28,602 nucleotides of DNA. It comes from a virus. This document shows positions 15,587 to 24,495 of the stretch, one piece after another. Every line of letters starts with the position of its first letter. The stretch's first letter is position 1. A program made the translations under genes and the position numbers. The notes under the pieces were generated by a model. The model was not told the origin of the DNA and searched no databases. It was given only the letters and a program-made list of their open reading frames with translations. The DNA lies in the IMG/VR virus record IMGVR_UViG_3300017719_000132, positions 1 through 28,602 of that record; one strand, given 5' to 3'.

Positions 15587-18500
15587 TTAAAACGTTTCTT
15601 CTAATGTCTCAGAAGAATACTCGTAATCGAGAGCATTTGATGTAAAATATCCTAATTCTACATATGATCTCGTTCTTATCACAGACCCATTATCTGCAGA
15701 TCCTGCAGGCAATGTATCCTGGATACCTTTATTTATACTATAAATATCACTGTCTATCAAAGTTGTTGCATCACTTACTGATGCAGAATCAGATAATACT
15801 TTAGTAAACGATAAACTTTCACTATCAGACGTATTATCTATAATATCTTGTAATACTTTATTCGTCAATCTATCAACTACTTCTTCGTCTGGTGAGGTCA
15901 AAAGAACTACACGAATCCAAGTAGCATCATGGTTACCAGTGGTACCACTCTGAGATGTCCCACCACCCATAATATAATAATCTCCTGCTGCAGATGCAGA
16001 AGTATCCCATGTTAAAACCCCACTCGTTGTTGCGTTAATATTAGAGTTATAATTATTCACCATCCCTTGGTTAGTCACTCCAGTAGTGACGAGATCTGTA
16101 GTTGTGTCTGCAGTTTTAGATGTCTTAAGCCAATATCCGCTTCTGGAGGTTGCTTTTGGTAAACCACTCGAATAGTGGTAATTGAATGTTATTGTATCTC
16201 CTACATAGGCAATTATGACAGCACCTGGAACCTCAGAGACACCAACGCTAGAATTGCCCGATGTAGTTTCACCAGTACTATCGCGACCTCTGAAATATCC
16301 TGGCACATAGCCTGCGGCAGTAGTTACATGGGAACTTGGTCTGAAAGCAGAAACTCGATGGTCTGCTGACCTATCCCTATCGTTATCGGTTAATTCAGCA
16401 TTGGAATCTAAAACTCTATCAGAATCACGATTAGTTTCTGGGTTCTCTCTTATCACGAAAGAAGCTTCACTATTCACTGAGGGATCTCTACCCCTAACAC
16501 CAAAATGCACGTCAATAGTCATCGTTGGTGTAAAAAGCTCCAATACATCAGTTAAGGGTTTACCTATATTAGAAACCTCATCGTCAAGAACCTGTGCAGG
16601 TTCTTGAATAGCTTTACCTAATGAAATTGTAGAGTTACCCTCGACATCATCTGTCGAAATCAACAGGATATCGGTAAATAATTTCCCAGTAAGATCTATA
16701 GTAAAAAATTCATCCTCTGGGTCAATAGAAGTGCTATCTGATTGAGGAAACACACGAGAAAGCACGAATAGACTATCATTAGGTTCTGTAACTTGATCTT
16801 GAAATGCGCCTAAAGAAACAGCCTTACCTAAAGGATCTTGAACTCCAGTAACTAGAGTTTCACTCAAACCCTTAGTGAAAAGTTTATCCTCGATATCTGC
16901 TTCAACAAGACGTTCTGCACCTGTCAGATTTATTATATCAGATTGATCTTTAATAATCCTATAAATGTCTGGGTCTGCAACAGTAGTGATATCAGAAACA
17001 CCATCAATAAGGCTATCTGCGAAGATCTTAACCAAAGAAATCCCTAGAAGGTCGTCATCTTCTAGATCTACTGTTTCGTTTAATATCTTACCGACATTTA
17101 TAGGGTTGTCATGTAATATGTTTTGAACATTTTCCTGAAAACCTTCTTTAGAAAAATGTTTTTTAGATCCTTCATCTTCAGCATCAGCTGTAGAATCTAT
17201 TAGGTCATCAGGATTTGTTGACGTTAATGGGAATTCTTTAATGAAAGATTTTGGGGTATCCTTATTGGGATCATTCGCAAGATCCGAGAAAACAGCATAA
17301 ACTATTGATTCGTCTAATGTAGATTCATGAGACATATTCTTAGTGAAGTGTCGGGCATCATTATCATCATCTTCTAAATTAACTAAATCTTCTCTATCCT
17401 TAGTGAAGTGCCAATCGTCATTATCGTCACCATCTAGATCAACCTCGTCTAAATTAACTTTAGTGAAGTGCCAATCATCGTTGTCATCATCGTCTAAATT
17501 TACTATGTCTAAATTAACTTTAGTGAAGTGCCAATCATCAAAATCGTTTGAGTCGTCAAGGTTTACAACTTCTCTATATTTTTCCGAATTGCTGAAGTCC
17601 TTGAGAATAACTCTAGTTTCCTGTAGGTGTTCAGCATCAGCTGTAGAATCTAATAAGTCTGAAAATACAGGAAACTCCTTAGTGAATGCGTTTACAGGTA
17701 AATTTTCAGAAAGGAGATTAATCCTAGTTTCTGAATCTTCTGATGCTGCATTCTGAGATGGAAACTCTTTTGCGAATTCATAAGTTTCTTTTATAATCTC
17801 ATCATTAACGTCAGTAAACTGTATGTAGTGAGCACCAGCTGGAGTAGACATATCCTTAAGAATAACTCTAGTCTCTTGTATAATCTCACTGTTAACATCG
17901 GTAAATTGGACATACAGAGAATCATCAGTTGACATGTCTTTAAGAGTAACTCTAGTTTCCTGTAGGTGTTCAGCATCAGCAGTAGAGTCTATTAAGTCAT
18001 CTGGATTTGTAGACGTTAGCGGGAATTCTTTAACAAAAGAATAATCATCGAGGTCACCTACGTCAGTTTTATGCTCGGTTTCAGCATCATTTTCTGCTGG
18101 GAAAATTTTATCAAAATCATAAACGTCAAAGTCATCGTTTCTAGTAGAAGTCCCATCCCCACCAGGAAGTAATTCCCCATTCGACGTGTTGTCAATGAAT
18201 AACTTGTTGTAGTAAAATGCTGAGTTCTCGGTCTGGGAAACGCTTAATTCGAAATTCTCATTTATGCTTTGTTCACCAAATATCTTCATACCAGCTGGGT
18301 GAACCGACTTCTTAATTAGATCCTCGAATAAATCAAAGTCTACGCCAGTTTGAATAACATAAGAGAACTCTTGATACAGGTCGTTATCCTGAATCTTAAT
18401 AATATCAGAAACAAATCCTTTACGGTCAACATATTTCGGAGAGGTTACTCCGACAACCCCCGACCTAAATGTAACTTTAGCGTTTGTACCGCCAGATCCT

Positions 18501-21500
18501 TGTGGGGCAATTATTGATGTAAAAGATTCTGGGTAATCGAATCCAAAACTAGAAAGTTGTACCTGTTCAATTTCGCCATTAGAACCGATCTTAGAAACAC
18601 GTGCATTAGCACCAGTTCCGGGACCATCTATAAGAATTGGATTATTGGCAGTTCCTAGCAGTGGCTCGGCGATTACTTCATCTATCCACTCAACATAATT
18701 TGGAGTCCCTATTACAGCTAATTGAGCATCAGCACGTGTTCCGGATATAGTTACTGTAGGGTTATTATAATTAGTACCTGCAGCGGTTATATTAAATCCA
18801 GTAATCTTACTATCTTGTATAGTTACAGTTGCTGTAGCTGCATCGTTAGCTACAATTATTTCTCCGCTCATGTCACTGTATTGAGAAGATTGATAGTAGT
18901 AAGTCCCAGCACTTGTAGGGGTAAACGAAACTGTTGCTGTGCCACGACCAGCAACAGTTGAATCTGTTATGGCGTCAGTAGTACCTGCAGCTTGCGATGT
19001 TTTAATATAGAATTCATTTTGAAGATCTTCCGAAGTATTCGTCAAGTCAAACGTTACTGTATCCCCCAAAGATATATTAATAGATGGATCGCTGATGTCG
19101 TCGACATCACCACCTCTATCTAAAGACTGATAAAACAGATAGCTGAGGTTGAGACTGTCTTGTATACTTGATTTAAATGTATGCTCTTCGGTGATTGCTA
19201 AGGTTGCCGATTGCCAACCACTAAGAGATGCGATAGGGGTTTCCCCAGTTGCAACAATTTCGGTTATTTCGCCATCTTCATTGATTGTCGCTTCTAGAGC
19301 GGGCTCATATCTTTGGAATGAATTTGCAGTGCTTGTCGCATCCCCATATCCTATCCCTTGAGATACAACGTCAAGATTCGTTATAACCTTATCTTGCACA
19401 ATAGCCTTCATCTTGGGGTATCTTGGGTTGTCGTTGATAGAACCCCGATGAACAGTAACCTTGTTATTAGCTGATGCTGAATAACCAGAACCGCTATTAT
19501 CTATTTGTATCTGGTCTATGACACCGCTGATCGTCTCAAACCCAGAAATGTTTGCACCCTGACCAGAACCACTATCAGACACTGTTATATTATTAAAACC
19601 ACCAGCTATAACATAATCTTCACCGCCATCCAAAATATTGATAGCAGTTATAACCCCACCTACAATTACAGGTTCTAGACTAGCACCTGTTCCGTTGGGG
19701 TTTAAAATTGTAACTGTAGTGGTCGCAGGATCATATCCAGAACCGCCTTCAGTAACTGTGACTTTGTCAATCGCATTATCTTTTACAAATACCGTTCCCC
19801 CGAATCCAGAACCAATGGAAGATGTTAAAGATATAGTCGAAGAGGCTTCACTGTATCCTGTACCCCCACTAACGACTGTTACTGAACTTACTGTACCATC
19901 ACCTGCTATAACAGGGGTAAGTATAGCATTATCATAAACTGCCGAAATTCTCTCAATTGGGTTCTCGGGGAAATTGTACATCAATGAAGGCAGACCAATT
20001 GATTGTATTCTTCCGTTACTAATTGTAAGGTCTACTTCATAATACTTAAAACTTCGAAGCCAAGTAAATGGAGGACTTTCAACAACAGAATTAAAGGGTG
20101 CTTTCACAATAGCTTTTGCTGACCTTATACCCTCACCAGCTGATGTGATTTCAAACCCTGTTATAACACCATCCCTTATTATTGTGTTATATGCAGCTTG
20201 ATTACCGCCACCTGTATTTTCTAAAGTTATCGACCCAGAATCTGGTATGTATCCACCGATGAGCTCGTTTACGTCAATCCTACTGATACCACCTTTAGAT
20301 ACATCATAATAACCAGCTGCACGTTGTAATAAAAGTCTAACGTCGTCGAGGTTTATTCGACCAGTTTGAGTGATGTCCCCACGGACTCTTCCTGTAGCAT
20401 AATCGCCATCAGTTTCTAGTAAGTAGTCGTGTAAAGAATTTCTTTTATTAGATTGATAAAGAGCAGCAAAGGCTGAAACGTACTTATCTAGTTGCTCAGT
20501 TCCTTGAGCGGATATAGCGGGATCGCTATCATCTTGCTGAGTAGCAGATACACCACCAACGTCGATATATGCGGTAATCCAATTTAACTCACCTGCTGTC
20601 AGACTACTTCTTAATGTGGAATTGCTATATTTAATAATTGATATTAGGTCGTCAGTATCGATCTCTCCGTCATTATCGATATCGCCTTTTTCAAATTCTG
20701 TAAGACCAGCAGTTTGTTGAATAAGCGCATATTCAGCACCAACTGCAGCACCTTCAACTCCACCGAGTAATCCGAATGACAACTTGATGACATCTACTGC
20801 AACATCTATCGGAAGCTCAACTGGACTATTTGGGTTTCCAGGATTTACTGGGAAAGTTTGATCTGTGAGACCGCTTGCTAGAGCGTAAGCATTCCACGCT
20901 TCGAATACTTCGGTTATTCTTAAAAATCTATCTGTGTCTGCGCCAGTTACGCTGAAATCAAATACATACTTTAATACCGATAATGCATCATCTGTTGAAA
21001 ATTGACCGTCTTGGTCAAAGTCTATTCTTTGGTATTGATCGCCGACAGAGTTATAGGTCGGATCGCTGATACTAGTGCCAGCATATGTTGATCCAGTTGG
21101 AGTATCTAATAAGTAAGCATAAAGACCTATAGGAGAAACGCCACCTAAACTATCATAGTTATTCAACTCTGTCAAGGCTGAAGAAATCGCATCCCAGTTT
21201 ACAGCTAAATTTGGAGTCGGGATACCATCTAATGTTTCTTTAAATTCTTTGACCTTTCCGTTTTCAAACTCGATACGAGTTATGACAGTTGACCCTCGGA
21301 ATGTTTTGGTCGTTACAGAGCCTTTGCTTTTTATAGTCTGAGTGATAGTACCATCAGACCTTACATCTACATCTACATCTTCGACCTCAAACCTTGATAA
21401 TTCAGATATTATGCTTCTGGCTGGGCTTACTCTAGATAAAGATCTTCTTCTAAACTGAGTCGGCAATCCAGCTAGTTCGTTAAAATTAGTAGATCTTATA

Positions 21501-22216
21501 AAATCTTTTACTTCAAATACTTCACCAACTCGGAAACCAGTACCGCCTTCTTCAATATTAGCAACCTCTGCCATGGTAGGTTTGAGAGTGGCTACCACAT
21601 CCCCATATTTTATTACACTGTCAAAATAGAAGAAACCAGCAAAGTATCTTGAGACATAAACCTCGTATACATTGTTAGATTCTTCCCTTTGCTCTACACG
21701 TTTAACTTCTACGTCAAAAGTTTGTGTGGGGGTGTTAGGGAAAGTAGTTTCGACCTCAACATACTTACCGACTGTAGTGTATATGTCGCCTTCATTTAAC
21801 TCTACAATTACAGAATATTCACTTAGCCAGTTACCAGACGATGCTTTTAGGATTTGTTCTTTGGGTAATTTTATTTCAATCTCTTCGCCAAATAATGCCC
21901 TGAACATAACCTTAATAGATTGTAATGAACCTTTAGCCGAATAGATTTCAGAAAGGTTGTTTATCAGGTTTTCTTGGTTAGATTCTTTATTTAATACAAA
22001 CCCATAACCAAGCTCATTATATAATGAACTGAGGTAGAAGTCAGTAGCATTGCTGAGAGTTCTTTGGGTGAGGGATAAATCTACATTATGAGAGGGATTA
22101 CCCTCTTGACCCATCCACTCATAATACTTTTTAAGGAATGTTACAAATTCAACAGACTCTGCTGCCAAATTGTCTGGTAGTATCTCAGGAACTCTTGTAA
22201 TTTCTTTATTTGACAT
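15587..22216 (-). CDS. 7: Giant gp7-like baseplate wedge protein with fibre-like extension, 2209 aa
   Basis: Residues 1-150 (FVTFLKKYYEWMGQEGNPSH, FYLSSLYNELGYGF, SAKGSLQSIKVMFRALFGEE then IEIKLPKEQIL) match the C-terminal wedge segment of T4 gp7 (FCEAYIQYLSDGYG, YSTKGIEASYKFLFKVLYNE, VEIEI). A second gp7 landmark, SVHPAGMKIFGE (T4 FVHPVGFGF), is at about 1304-1315. Between them lie three dockerin/EF-hand-like loops (399-410, 512-523, 614-625), a GGxGY beta-repeat region (about 690-1000) and a cupredoxin-like domain (1043-1125). After residue 1345 comes an acidic repetitive tract, with a 20-residue tandem repeat at 1547-1626, then a second cupredoxin-like domain (1997-2105). T4 gp7 is 1032 residues. 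In T4, gp7 joins the wedge to neighbouring wedge proteins. The ATG directly follows the gp6 stop (TAAATG). The gp7 assignment rests on two motifs plus its place after gp6. Confidence 0.75.
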   Translation of the reverse strand: MSNKEITRVPEILPDNLAAESVEFVTFLKKYYEWMGQEGNPSHNVDLSLTQRTLSNATDFYLSSLYNELGYGFVLNKESNQENLINNLSEIYSAKGSLQSIKVMFRALFGEEIEIKLPKEQILKASSGNWLSEYSVIVELNEGDIYTTVGKYVEVETTFPNTPTQTFDVEVKRVEQREESNNVYEVYVSRYFAGFFYFDSVIKYGDVVATLKPTMAEVANIEEGGTGFRVGEVFEVKDFIRSTNFNELAGLPTQFRRRSLSRVSPARSIISELSRFEVEDVDVDVRSDGTITQTIKSKGSVTTKTFRGSTVITRIEFENGKVKEFKETLDGIPTPNLAVNWDAISSALTELNNYDSLGGVSPIGLYAYLLDTPTGSTYAGTSISDPTYNSVGDQYQRIDFDQDGQFSTDDALSVLKYVFDFSVTGADTDRFLRITEVFEAWNAYALASGLTDQTFPVNPGNPNSPVELPIDVAVDVIKLSFGLLGGVEGAAVGAEYALIQQTAGLTEFEKGDIDNDGEIDTDDLISIIKYSNSTLRSSLTAGELNWITAYIDVGGVSATQQDDSDPAISAQGTEQLDKYVSAFAALYQSNKRNSLHDYLLETDGDYATGRVRGDITQTGRINLDDVRLLLQRAAGYYDVSKGGISRIDVNELIGGYIPDSGSITLENTGGGNQAAYNTIIRDGVITGFEITSAGEGIRSAKAIVKAPFNSVVESPPFTWLRSFKYYEVDLTISNGRIQSIGLPSLMYNFPENPIERISAVYDNAILTPVIAGDGTVSSVTVVSGGTGYSEASSTISLTSSIGSGFGGTVFVKDNAIDKVTVTEGGSGYDPATTTVTILNPNGTGASLEPVIVGGVITAINILDGGEDYVIAGGFNNITVSDSGSGQGANISGFETISGVIDQIQIDNSGSGYSASANNKVTVHRGSINDNPRYPKMKAIVQDKVITNLDVVSQGIGYGDATSTANSFQRYEPALEATINEDGEITEIVATGETPIASLSGWQSATLAITEEHTFKSSIQDSLNLSYLFYQSLDRGGDVDDISDPSINISLGDTVTFDLTNTSEDLQNEFYIKTSQAAGTTDAITDSTVAGRGTATVSFTPTSAGTYYYQSSQYSDMSGEIIVANDAATATVTIQDSKITGFNITAAGTNYNNPTVTISGTRADAQLAVIGTPNYVEWIDEVIAEPLLGTANNPILIDGPGTGANARVSKIGSNGEIEQVQLSSFGFDYPESFTSIIAPQGSGGTNAKVTFRSGVVGVTSPKYVDRKGFVSDIIKIQDNDLYQEFSYVIQTGVDFDLFEDLIKKSVHPAGMKIFGEQSINENFELSVSQTENSAFYYNKLFIDNTSNGELLPGGDGTSTRNDDFDVYDFDKIFPAENDAETEHKTDVGDLDDYSFVKEFPLTSTNPDDLIDSTADAEHLQETRVTLKDMSTDDSLYVQFTDVNSEIIQETRVILKDMSTPAGAHYIQFTDVNDEIIKETYEFAKEFPSQNAASEDSETRINLLSENLPVNAFTKEFPVFSDLLDSTADAEHLQETRVILKDFSNSEKYREVVNLDDSNDFDDWHFTKVNLDIVNLDDDDNDDWHFTKVNLDEVDLDGDDNDDWHFTKDREDLVNLEDDDNDARHFTKNMSHESTLDESIVYAVFSDLANDPNKDTPKSFIKEFPLTSTNPDDLIDSTADAEDEGSKKHFSKEGFQENVQNILHDNPINVGKILNETVDLEDDDLLGISLVKIFADSLIDGVSDITTVADPDIYRIIKDQSDIINLTGAERLVEADIEDKLFTKGLSETLVTGVQDPLGKAVSLGAFQDQVTEPNDSLFVLSRVFPQSDSTSIDPEDEFFTIDLTGKLFTDILLISTDDVEGNSTISLGKAIQEPAQVLDDEVSNIGKPLTDVLELFTPTMTIDVHFGVRGRDPSVNSEASFVIRENPETNRDSDRVLDSNAELTDNDRDRSADHRVSAFRPSSHVTTAAGYVPGYFRGRDSTGETTSGNSSVGVSEVPGAVIIAYVGDTITFNYHYSSGLPKATSRSGYWLKTSKTADTTTDLVTTGVTNQGMVNNYNSNINATTSGVLTWDTSASAAGDYYIMGGGTSQSGTTGNHDATWIRVVLLTSPDEEVVDRLTNKVLQDIIDNTSDSESLSFTKVLSDSASVSDATTLIDSDIYSINKGIQDTLPAGSADNGSVIRTRSYVELGYFTSNALDYEYSSETLEETF
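15730..15737 (-). promoter_or_regulatory. Candidate late promoter (TATAAATA) in the 3' end of the gp7-like gene
   Basis: The coding strand reads AGTATAAATAAAG, encoding Ser-Ile-Asn-Lys. A start near 15724 would leave about 163 bases of leader before the 187-aa gene. The longer match AGTATAAATAA, shared with the sites at 2798 and 24501, supports function. Confidence 0.5.
16584..16607. other. 24-base perfect hairpin inside the gp7-like gene
   Basis: TCAAGAACCT (16584-16593) and AGGTTCTTGA (16598-16607) are exact complements around a 4-base loop. It lies within the codons for Ile-Gln-Glu-Pro-Ala-Gln-Val-Leu-Asp near residue 1873. No T tract follows on either strand close by. The role is unknown. 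Confidence 0.55.
17177..17239 (-). repeat. Dispersed 63-base direct repeat in gp7-like gene, copy A
   Basis: Encodes KEFPLTSTNPDDLIDSTADA plus Glu. An equal-length copy encoding the same residues lies at 17969-18031. The DNA copies differ at synonymous positions, so selection has held the protein sequence. Confidence 0.75.
17339..17578 (-). repeat. Tandem repeat, 4 x 60 bases, acidic WHFTK repeat
   Basis: Four 60-base units are in perfect register (17339-17398, 17399-17458, 17459-17518, 17519-17578). Each encodes 20 residues of the pattern VNLDxVNLDDDDNDDWHFTK. The first and last translated units are the most diverged (DFDDWHFTK and DDNDARHFTK). The units are in frame, strongly acidic and lie at residues 1547-1626 of the gp7-like protein. 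Confidence 0.9.
17608..17641 (-). repeat. 34-base identical direct repeat, copy 1
   Basis: The 34 bases are identical to 17947-17980, about 340 bases away in the same gene. They encode the end of DSTADAEHLQETRV. They lie inside longer related blocks (DSTADAE...LQETRVxLKD). Confidence 0.8.
17947..17980 (-). repeat. 34-base identical direct repeat, copy 2
   Basis: Identical to 17608-17641. It overlaps the 63-base copy B at 17969-18031. Unequal recombination between copies would remove or add about 113 codons in frame. Confidence 0.8.
17969..18031 (-). repeat. Dispersed 63-base direct repeat in gp7-like gene, copy B
   Basis: Encodes the same 21 residues as copy A at 17177-17239 (KEFPLTSTNPDDLIDSTADA plus Glu), with scattered synonymous changes. 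Confidence 0.75.
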
Positions 22217-24052
22217 TTAGTGTCTCGTAAACGTTTGATAACTTGATAGTCCAGTAGATCCTAGTAGCGATACCGTGTCTAACTCGGATGTTATTTTAAT
22301 TGTTCCAGTCGGTATGGTAAGCAATTGCTTATATTTAGGGCTGATATCGAAGCTGTCTGGTTTAGCATAAATGGTAATAAAGTTAGAAAGGTCGAATTTT
22401 ATATTCTTTAGGTTGACAGTACCCTTTACTGGATCTATAGTGCCGACATTTGCATATTTAGAAATTTTCTCGCTAGTACCATTATTGATAACGAAAATTC
22501 TTCTATCCGTAGAACCGTTTATAGGCTCATCGCTTAACCTACATTCAACACCATCCAACAAGAAAACGCTAGAATTTATTGTCGCCTCATTAGTCGTCGA
22601 GATGTAAAGAGAATTAGGAAAGCTAATCATATAATCTTCAGCTTTCAAAGGGAATGGTCTAAACCTCTTATACATTCTTGTTCTTATAACCGAGTTGATA
22701 ATTCCAGGGTCTGATTCATCAATCAACTTCAGAAGATTAGACATACGGAATACCCCATTAAACGACAAAAGATTATCCTCATTGTATTTATCAACCGTAT
22801 CTGACACCTTGGTTTCTATTTGACCAGCAGTTAGTTTAGACTTGTTGCTATCGTACTTAAAGTCTACTTCTAATTCTATATTAGTGTATTCGGCTTCAAC
22901 TATATCTGGAGTAATAGCACCAACATTTTTGTCTTTTAAGAATAGCCGTACAGAATCGATAAATGTTTCAGTAACCCTTTCTTGATTTTTAAGTGCAAGT
23001 GCAACAAATACCTTACCAAAGATTGGAGGATCATTATCTTCACCGCCCCAAACAGAGATATCTTGGATATCAGTAAATTCACGAACTAGCAAAGCACGAT
23101 AATCGTCAGCAGTCACGGCACGGTCTTGTGTAGCGTAACTTATAGGTGCGTTAAACCTAATTGATTCAAGAGTTTCTTTATCGGAACCGCCAATAGATCT
23201 TTCGCTACCTGTAGCTCTCAATATGCTTATCCCAGATAGATTGTTAATAGAACCAGAAGGAGAAAAGTTAGTAATACCATTAGCTTCTTTACCATCTGTC
23301 ACAAGATATTCAGCTAGAACCTTAGAGCCACTTTCAGGTCGTTTACCTAAGTAATTGTCACCAAAGTATATTTCATATCTACCAAAGTTATTCTCACTAT
23401 AGAAGTAAACTTGAGAGTCTGGTCTTGTTTCGTTAATTTTATTAAAGAAAGTGTATGCAGTACCATTCAGCTGATTTTCAGTTTCGAATACAGATACCGA
23501 TAATGTTTCAGTATCAACGCTTTCAGATGAAATTTCAAACTTCTGGAATGGAGAAAGACCATCAGTACGGAAAGTTTCTGTTTTAAGCGCACCTTGATAC
23601 ACTGGAATATTAGTAAACCTATAGGTGTTGTCGCTCAACTTAACAGCTGTTGCGTCGGACAGAACTACAAAGTAATAGGTCTTGTTATTAATTTTACCGC
23701 TTACTTTATACCCACGCTTCAAGGTAATCCTAGCAGGAGTATCTGCTGCGCCTGTAACTGTAATATCTAAATTTACTGTTGATGCCTTTTTAGATTTAGG
23801 TACATAACCCAAAGACTGGGCACGAGCAACCACGTTAGATCTAACCTGAGCGGTGGCAAGGTCTGACTCGTTAAGAGTCATATGCGCTAGTAATGCGTTG
23901 TAGTGCGTATTGTATGCTAGAACGTCCATCAATACATTCAGACCAGAACCTTCAAAATCATAATCTGTAAATTCGTCTTGGCTCTTTAGGAATTCTTTGA
24001 TAGAATCTTTTATCTGATCAAAGTCTAGTTTTGTTAGGTCTGTTTGCGCCAT
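22217..24052 (-). CDS. 6: Baseplate wedge subunit gp6, 611 aa
   Basis: The N-terminus, LDFDQIKDSIKEFLKSQDEF then DYDFEGSGLNVLMDVLAYNT and HYNALLAHMTLNESDL, is the hallmark of T4-like gp6 and, more distantly, the phage J-type baseplate proteins. GRYEIYFGDNYLGKRP at about 223-238 and SYATQDRAVTADDYRALL at about 304-321 are further conserved blocks. The length is close to T4 gp6 (660). In T4, gp6 dimers form the continuous ring of the inner baseplate and hold wedges together with gp25 and gp53. The ATG overlaps the gp25 stop by one base (TAATG) and an AAGG lies just upstream, so the two are probably made in fixed ratio. The next gene starts immediately after the stop. Confidence 0.92.
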   Translation of the reverse strand: MAQTDLTKLDFDQIKDSIKEFLKSQDEFTDYDFEGSGLNVLMDVLAYNTHYNALLAHMTLNESDLATAQVRSNVVARAQSLGYVPKSKKASTVNLDITVTGAADTPARITLKRGYKVSGKINNKTYYFVVLSDATAVKLSDNTYRFTNIPVYQGALKTETFRTDGLSPFQKFEISSESVDTETLSVSVFETENQLNGTAYTFFNKINETRPDSQVYFYSENNFGRYEIYFGDNYLGKRPESGSKVLAEYLVTDGKEANGITNFSPSGSINNLSGISILRATGSERSIGGSDKETLESIRFNAPISYATQDRAVTADDYRALLVREFTDIQDISVWGGEDNDPPIFGKVFVALALKNQERVTETFIDSVRLFLKDKNVGAITPDIVEAEYTNIELEVDFKYDSNKSKLTAGQIETKVSDTVDKYNEDNLLSFNGVFRMSNLLKLIDESDPGIINSVIRTRMYKRFRPFPLKAEDYMISFPNSLYISTTNEATINSSVFLLDGVECRLSDEPINGSTDRRIFVINNGTSEKISKYANVGTIDPVKGTVNLKNIKFDLSNFITIYAKPDSFDISPKYKQLLTIPTGTIKITSELDTVSLLGSTGLSSYQTFTRH

Positions 24053-24495
24053 TACCTTAATCTCTCTAATAATAGTTGAAGGTCAAATTGTTGTTGCGTG
24101 TTTACAATTACCGTAGATATCGTAATTGCATATGCGTTTTTATCAGGGTAATCTTCAATAGCAACATCAGTTACTTCTACCCTTGGCTCTTGAATGCCAA
24201 TAGAATACATTATCTCTCTACGCATAGATGCTTTTGTGATACCATCAGCTGGTTCAAATAAATAATTTTTTAAACCACACCCAAAGTTTGGATCAAAGGG
24301 TTTCTCTCCACGATTTGTTTTTAAGATATTCCTGATAGAGTTTTTGATTGCCTCTAAGTCTTTAACAGGTGATATATCTCCGTATTCGGGATGCACTCTA
24401 AAACCCAAAGAAAGGTCTCTGTACTGCCTAGTAGTACCAGTGATCTTAGATCTGGTTTCCTGAAGGTTTTTATCTGAAATTAATTCTGTGCTCAT
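24052..24495 (-). CDS. 25: Baseplate wedge subunit gp25, 147 aa
   Basis: The gp25/lysozyme-like wedge family is shown by IKNSIRNILKTNRGEKPFDP then NFGCGLKNYLFEP at about 50-82 and the EPR motif at 103-105 (IQEPRVEVTDV). The family has no lysozyme activity despite old names. In T4, gp25 binds gp6 and gp53 and contacts the first sheath ring, so the EPR motif is central to sheath attachment. The protein has an N-terminal extension of about 15 residues compared with T4 gp25 (132 aa). The ATG at 24495 is the only reasonable start: an in-frame stop lies 7 codons upstream and there is no other ATG until mid-protein. No Shine-Dalgarno is visible; a perfect late-promoter box lies 5 bases before the ATG. 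Confidence 0.92.
   Translation of the reverse strand: MSTELISDKNLQETRSKITGTTRQYRDLSLGFRVHPEYGDISPVKDLEAIKNSIRNILKTNRGEKPFDPNFGCGLKNYLFEPADGITKASMRREIMYSIGIQEPRVEVTDVAIEDYPDKNAYAITISTVIVNTQQQFDLQLLLERLR

Follow-up and report, generated by a model that had tools for sequence, protein, structure and literature searches.

Dockerins are known mainly as cellulosome plugs, and EF-hand loops usually have Glu at position 12. Dockerins of type I (PF00404; structures 8x39 and 4uyp) are built around a 12-residue Asp-rich loop with Gly at position 6 and Asp at position 12, an exit helix running from position 10 and no helix immediately ahead of the loop; two such loops, about 33 residues apart (2y3n, from the PDB profile alignment), lie in chains of 60–88 residues. 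In the baseplate of lactococcal phage p2 the receptor-binding heads turn by 200 degrees with calcium; p2 is a siphophage, a different kind of phage, and the excerpted text of that paper mentions no dockerin-type loop (PMC3499812). The Gp02 protein of an E. coli siphophage is described, in the excerpt available, as having a dockerin-like carbohydrate-binding structure match together with a tailspike-like domain (PMC5967307). The open-access PMC literature, including the partial texts of PMC5429695, PMC5107563, PMC9377139 and PMC5795418, gave no account of a baseplate wedge protein with loops of the dockerin or EF-hand type.

Here the analysis covered a window of 28,602 nucleotides, the whole stretch of DNA analysed (positions 1–28,602 of virus record IMGVR_UViG_3300017719_000132, an uncultured T4-like bacterial virus), and within it a long wedge protein and its neighbours:

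24052–24495, minus strand: gp25 baseplate wedge protein (PF04965)
22217–24052, minus strand: gp6 baseplate wedge protein, directly upstream of the gp7-like gene (Gp6-like Pfam domains, phrog_219)
15587–22216, minus strand: gp7-like baseplate wedge protein, 2209 aa (Pfam PF23786, PHROG and T4 gp7 matches)
21227–22216, minus strand: N-terminal core of gp7, residues 1–330 (9f4a profile match, T4 gp7 blastp)
20249–21220, minus strand: dockerin-like module, residues 333–656 (conservation in six lineages, Dockerin_1 score of the excised stretch, model of the L104 homologue)
20987–21022, minus strand: loop 1, DFDQDGQFSTDD, residues 399–410 (pattern scan)
20771–20932, minus strand: predicted helical stretch that separates loop 1 from loop 2, residues 429–482 (fold comparison of the L104 homologue)
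20648–20683, minus strand: loop 2, DIDNDGEIDTDD, residues 512–523, the best conserved loop, where the window's Dockerin_1 match falls
20342–20377, minus strand: loop 3, DITQTGRINLDD, residues 614–625, degenerate in the window, with better ligands in relatives
18542–20248, minus strand: glycine-rich repeat arm, residues 657–1225 (from the translation; beta structure assumed)
18197–18541, minus strand: C-terminal core of gp7, residues ~1226–1340 (blastp to the gp7s of pf16, BUCT-ZZ01, L144 and L146)

The 2209-aa protein had been called gp7-like in an initial annotation made from the letters alone, and the family and structure searches agree with that identity. A Pfam scan placed PF23786 (Baseplate_wedge) in it with an E value of 1.9e-9 and 37.9 bits against a cut-off of 27, and PHROG wedge families matched it as well. 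When a profile of the N-terminal core from six lineages was searched against the PDB, the sole chain at E ≤ 10 was a 1032-residue gp7 (9f4a), aligned at residues 652–762 with an E value of 0.01; in blastp, residues 12–151 of the window protein matched residues 652–792 of T4 gp7 (E 4.7e-5). The genes stand in the row gp25, gp6 and gp7-like, with the gp6/gp7 order the same in T4.

The window protein resembles T4 gp7 and the short gp7s in its N-terminal core and in its place beside gp6, and it has a C-terminal core in common with the proteins at the gp7 position of phages pf16 (523 aa) and BUCT-ZZ01 (607 aa). By blastp, both short proteins matched its start, as far as residue 139–145, and the match resumed at residue 1198–1235, in the case of BUCT-ZZ01 also in the C-terminal repeats. 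Since nothing matched in between, the module sits in an insert; in the short gp7s the two core parts are almost adjacent at the place where the window protein has it. Unlike the window protein, T4 gp7 and the short gp7s lack both loops and module, and the same negative result was obtained for the gp7-position proteins of all five named phages compared with T4 (that of S-PM2 cut at 2997 residues). The statement in the initial annotation that T4 gp7 has no such motif therefore held under the strict pattern, the loose pattern and the module profile. In the window protein and its homologues L003, L004, L104 and L105 the order of parts is N-terminal core, module, glycine-rich repeat arm. In L107 the module (residues 948–1224) follows the glycine-rich repeats, just before the C-terminal core, which suggests a rearrangement of segments within the gp7 insert.

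All three loops reported earlier are present at residues 399 (DFDQDGQFSTDD), 512 (DIDNDGEIDTDD) and 614 (the degenerate DITQTGRINLDD), at measured spacings of 113 and 102 residues, in line with the 100–113 or so first given. A strict loop pattern found the first two in the 2209-aa open reading frame and none in the other 15 scanned in the window; a looser pattern added the loop at 614 and gave one unrelated match in a 2507-aa open reading frame. Loops 1 and 2 have the features of the 12-residue dockerin loop (Asp at positions 1 and 12, Gly at 6, an acidic residue or Asn at 3 and 5), loop 2 with Asp at positions 1, 3, 5, 9 and 12, and look from their residues like good calcium sites. Loop 3, with Thr at positions 3 and 5, agrees with the dockerin loop only at 1, 6 and 12 and looks like a weaker site in this protein. 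Shuffling the protein with its own letters (2000 trials) gave at least two strict loops in 0.05% of trials and at least three loose loops in 0.7%, percentages that serve as guides only, the patterns having been composed with the loops already known. Because the patterns postdate the sight of the loops, conservation in relatives is the better evidence.

The complete module was found in scans of viral contigs in 13 contigs besides the window record, which together form six lineages including the window's own (represented below by the window, L003, L004, L104, L105 and L107). In one of the 13 the module is 100% identical to the window's own, a fourteenth contig carries an incomplete module, and a scan with the unit of loop 3 returned the same 13. 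Prokaryote genome contigs yielded no relatives (288 pattern matches, none related). Against annotated phages the window module had no match at E ≤ 10, and modules of the L104 and L107 types gave only matches of E 4 or weaker (references L024 and L025); in PHROGs, nothing fell below 0.0089 for the five modules scanned. Pairwise identity of the module is 28–63% among the five of the six lineages compared.

Against this background of divergence, Asp occupies positions 1 and 12 in all 18 loops (three sites in six lineages), with codons that alternate between GAT and GAC from one relative to another. In loop 2, positions 1, 6 (Gly), 9 (Asp) and 12 are invariant in all six lineages, and Asp is found at 3 and 5 in five of them. 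Loop 3 is likewise invariant at 1, 6 (Gly) and 12 and variable at 3 and 5, with DINQNGRITLDD, DIDQSGLITLDD, DITNDGSITMED, DINNDGKVDLED and DINNDGFIGTDD in the relatives. Gly 6 of loop 1 is kept in five of six lineages, L105 is without ligands at positions 3 and 5, and in L104, L105 and L107 this loop is less conserved than the module. On the loss of Asp ligands in relatives, raised in the initial annotation, the outcome mostly favours the annotation: the pair at positions 1 and 12 is kept at the three sites in every lineage, though some loops lack ligands at 3 and 5, the clearest cases being the window's loop 3 and the first loop of L105. Over seven chosen positions (1, 3, 5, 6, 8, 9 and 12) mean pairwise identity was 0.61, 0.86 and 0.62 for loops 1–3, respectively, versus 0.38 for the module. 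Over all 12 columns, 61, 4 and 36 of 107 stretches of alignment equalled or beat loops 1, 2 and 3, so that only loop 2 stands out.

The affinity to dockerin and EF-hand families suggested at the outset was supported by profile search when the modules were scanned alone. Dockerin_1 scored above the Pfam cut-off of 22.9 bits in five of the six excised modules (window 24.3, L003 34.3, L104 31.1, L105 32.4 and L107 30.8 bits), and EF-hand_1 above its own cut-off in three (L003, L004 and L107); the sixth module, L004, scored 21.3 bits with Dockerin_1, under that family's cut-off. The best Dockerin_1 stretch corresponds to one loop-helix repeat of the Pfam model, not to both. Scanned whole, the window protein reached 13.6 bits, under the cut-off, and the L003 protein passed with 24.7 bits. 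Searched per genome, Dockerin_1 matched 11 of 12 records at E ≤ 10, two of them above the cut-off, and at the loose threshold it also matched 9 of 14 control genomes (two above the cut-off), so that a weak match says little by itself.

Searches of the PDB with a module profile point the same way. With five sequences in the profile, the best 4 of 26 matches at E ≤ 1 were short cellulosomal chains, which we take to be dockerin modules, followed by EF-hand proteins. With six sequences and 177,635 PDB sequences, the best 14 of 35 were of cellulosomal or cellulase type (E 5.7e-5 to 0.027), again ahead of the EF-hand proteins. Among these fourteen are a named dockerin, a carbohydrate-binding protein and a mix of cellulases and cellulosomal enzymes, as well as two chains labelled “serine protease” that carry the title of a cellulosomal double dockerin in the structure comparison. 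Long endoglucanase chains account for two of the fourteen, and their dockerin content is assumed. Lanmodulin (6mi5) was among the weaker matches, with an E value of 0.028 for the five-sequence profile and 0.24 for the six-sequence one; the metal favoured by the Asp-rich loop 2 may be calcium or a different ion.

Modelling the window's own module with three sequences gave a pLDDT of only 38.5, too low to be of use, and structure was read from an AlphaFold2 model of the module of the L104 homologue, built from six sequences (pLDDT 69, pTM 0.67; the five models span 49.6–69, two of them near 50). In that model the loops lie at residues 47–58, 141–152 and 247–258, the exit helices begin at 56, 150 and 256, in each case the tenth residue of the loop, and the preceding helices finish at 35, 129 and 234, 11–12 residues ahead of the loops. 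The modelled loops accordingly have the layout of the F-hand, with a helix from position 10 and none abutting in front. The expectation that the loops lead into helices is therefore borne out at all three sites of the predicted structure, the third at low confidence (block means of 54–57 for loop 3, compared with 78–86 for loops 1 and 2).

Foldseek found no match for the L104 model at E ≤ 0.001, either in the PDB or in a set of viral models. The VIA-align comparison, in which a Z below 8 may mean a common arrangement, was headed by the double dockerin 8x39 (Z 5.3, 61 residues, 3.4 Å) and the ScaB dockerin 4uyp (Z 5.0, 59 of 73 residues, 3.4 Å), both aligned over model residues about 42–113; a third dockerin, 5n5p, came sixth (Z 3.9), and unrelated rows reached 4.1. 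With dockerin Z values of 5.0–5.3, below 8, the fold comparison was taken as supportive only. Calbindin and calmodulin also appeared in the structure comparisons and were not taken as a sign of membership.

In a profile comparison of four units of the module, units 1, 3 and 4, bearing loops 1, 2 and 3, are alike at the loop-helix (P 4e-8, 2e-6 and 4e-9); unit 2, between loops 1 and 2, resembles none of them. A fourth, degenerate loop considered there (PIDVAVDVIKLSFG) was rejected, its profile giving P 0.06 against unit 1 and 0.34 and 0.74 against the others. In the fold comparison of the L104 model, however, this region takes the place of the second half of a dockerin; residues 429–482 of the window protein may accordingly complete a dockerin-like pair, as a half that has no ligands.

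A wider survey took in the best 80 of 376 relatives of the N-terminal core. Among the 20 nearest, 18 have at least one loop (a multi-loop module in 13 and a single loop in 5) and the remaining two are truncated ahead of the loop, L017 showing the start of the module. The five single-loop gp7s have, by eye, a similar “VNWD” helix ahead, followed by a long insert before the loop, and in three of them Asn replaces Gly at loop position 6. They matched the module profile at sequence E values of 2e-6 to 3e-4; with Dockerin_1, L146 fell below the cut-off and L144 had no match. The single dockerin-type loops of these two stand at gp7 residues 607 (L144) and 626 (L146). The single-loop form in more distant gp7s hints at a way in which the module may have grown, through repetition of a single loop-helix unit. 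None of the other 60 (45 complete, 15 truncated) matched the module profile at E ≤ 1. One of these distant gp7s, L153, has a lone loop, DIDNSGTLTSAD, at residue 864 of a 2084-aa protein; Pfam lends this loop no support, and annotated phages gave no match. It was not accepted as a third occurrence and was left as possibly due to chance. The photosystem family PF00124, used as a test for cyanophage hosts, was absent from the five records searched, all of which may be fragments.

The module shares with type I dockerins the 12-residue Asp-rich loop with Gly 6 and Asp 12 and, as modelled, the exit helix from position 10 with no helix abutting in front. It differs in that its loops are 102–113 residues apart and three in number over more than 300 residues, and that it lies inside a virion protein, with no cohesin found in 12 virus records. 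The compact pair of canonical loop-helix repeats that defines dockerins is absent, and the module is therefore not filed as a dockerin. With EF-hand proteins it shares a calcium-type loop followed by a helix; it differs from them in the Asp at loop position 12, with no Glu there in any of the 18 loops, and in a preceding helix that, in the L104 model, ends 11–12 residues early and does not abut the loop. Of the original proposal of dockerin- or EF-hand-type loops in the gp7-like protein, the loops are upheld by Pfam, the PDB profile, the relative's model and conservation; a canonical dockerin is not, the spacing being far too wide. The single loops look like dockerin F-hands.

Taken together, residues 333–656 are probably a dockerin-like, calcium-binding, helical structural module set between the two core parts of gp7. 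It would consist of three units, each closing with a short linker that leads into the Asp-rich loop of 12 residues and then the exit helix, and bound calcium would make it rigid and so set the stance of the repeat arm on the baseplate wedge. In favour of this reading are the conserved loops, the Dockerin_1 and PDB profile scores, the modelled geometry with dockerins as best fold rows, and the insert site between the gp7 cores. Against the calcium-module reading stand the whole-protein Dockerin_1 score of 13.6 bits, the 21.3 bits of the L004 module and the ligand loss in loop 1 of L105, as well as the 12-column conservation in which only loop 2 is distinguished, a model taken from a relative and of low confidence at its third loop, the negative Foldseek result, the low Z values and the loose Dockerin_1 matches in control genomes. 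Alternatively, the module could be a helical spacer with relic loops, of calcium-binding ancestry and no longer in need of metal in this virus. Such a relic would account for the ligands lost from the window's loop 3 and from the first loop of L105, and for a pair partner of loop 1 that has no visible ligands, but it sits poorly with a loop 2 whose ligands are all kept in the window and nearly all in the six lineages, and with a loop 3 that is better in relatives; we regard it as quite unlikely. That the loops are accidental words in an Asp-rich protein is very improbable: the C-terminal repeats are indeed rich in Asp, and a lone loop word without Pfam support does occur in one of 60 distant gp7s (L153), but chance would not be expected to place loops at the same sites in six lineages, with Pfam and PDB profile scores and the modelled geometry to match.

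A different function, calcium-dependent binding of a partner (a fibre, a second baseplate protein or a protein of the host surface) in the manner of dockerin and cohesin, would suit the dockerin-like sequence and layout and the position of the module outside the gp7 cores, in the variable insert that faces outward. The cohesin-like partner that the initial annotation envisaged found no support: the Cohesin family was absent from the 12 virus records searched, which run up to 120 kb and may be fragments, and no Cohesin model was among the Pfam hits (E ≤ 1) of 16 window proteins, including those of 114 and 187 aa. The partner need not be a cohesin, but the compact two-loop dockerin is also absent, and docking appears unlikely as the role of the module. 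The cytosol holds very little free calcium, usually far less than the surroundings of the cell, and folding of the proposed calcium-binding structural module may for this reason be completed on release, the module folding or stiffening fully only once the particle is outside the cell. An improbable extension of this is a true calcium switch, in which the module would be loose in the host cytosol and fold after lysis, setting the wedge arms for infection or using a dockerin-type face to dock a partner from the host or a fibre. With such loops in the baseplate, folding of a portion of the infection apparatus, or its grip on something else, may depend on calcium; a conserved dockerin relative in the wedge would give a T4-type machine a calcium dependence of which the sequence of T4 gp7 gives no sign. 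The module is short and expressible, and the structural reading makes clear predictions for it.

Other features of the same protein lie downstream of the module. Residues 1045–1122 (18848–19072, minus strand) gave weak cupredoxin-like and PPC matches below the cut-off, the cupredoxin match being found also in L004, and residues 1997–2106 (15899–16228, minus strand) appear by eye to be a second copy of this stretch. Between them, at 17339–17566 on the minus strand, lie acidic tandem repeats with a 60-bp unit in ~3.4 copies and “DDWHFTK” words; similar repeats are found in the gp7-position protein of BUCT-ZZ01 (blastp E 2e-5).
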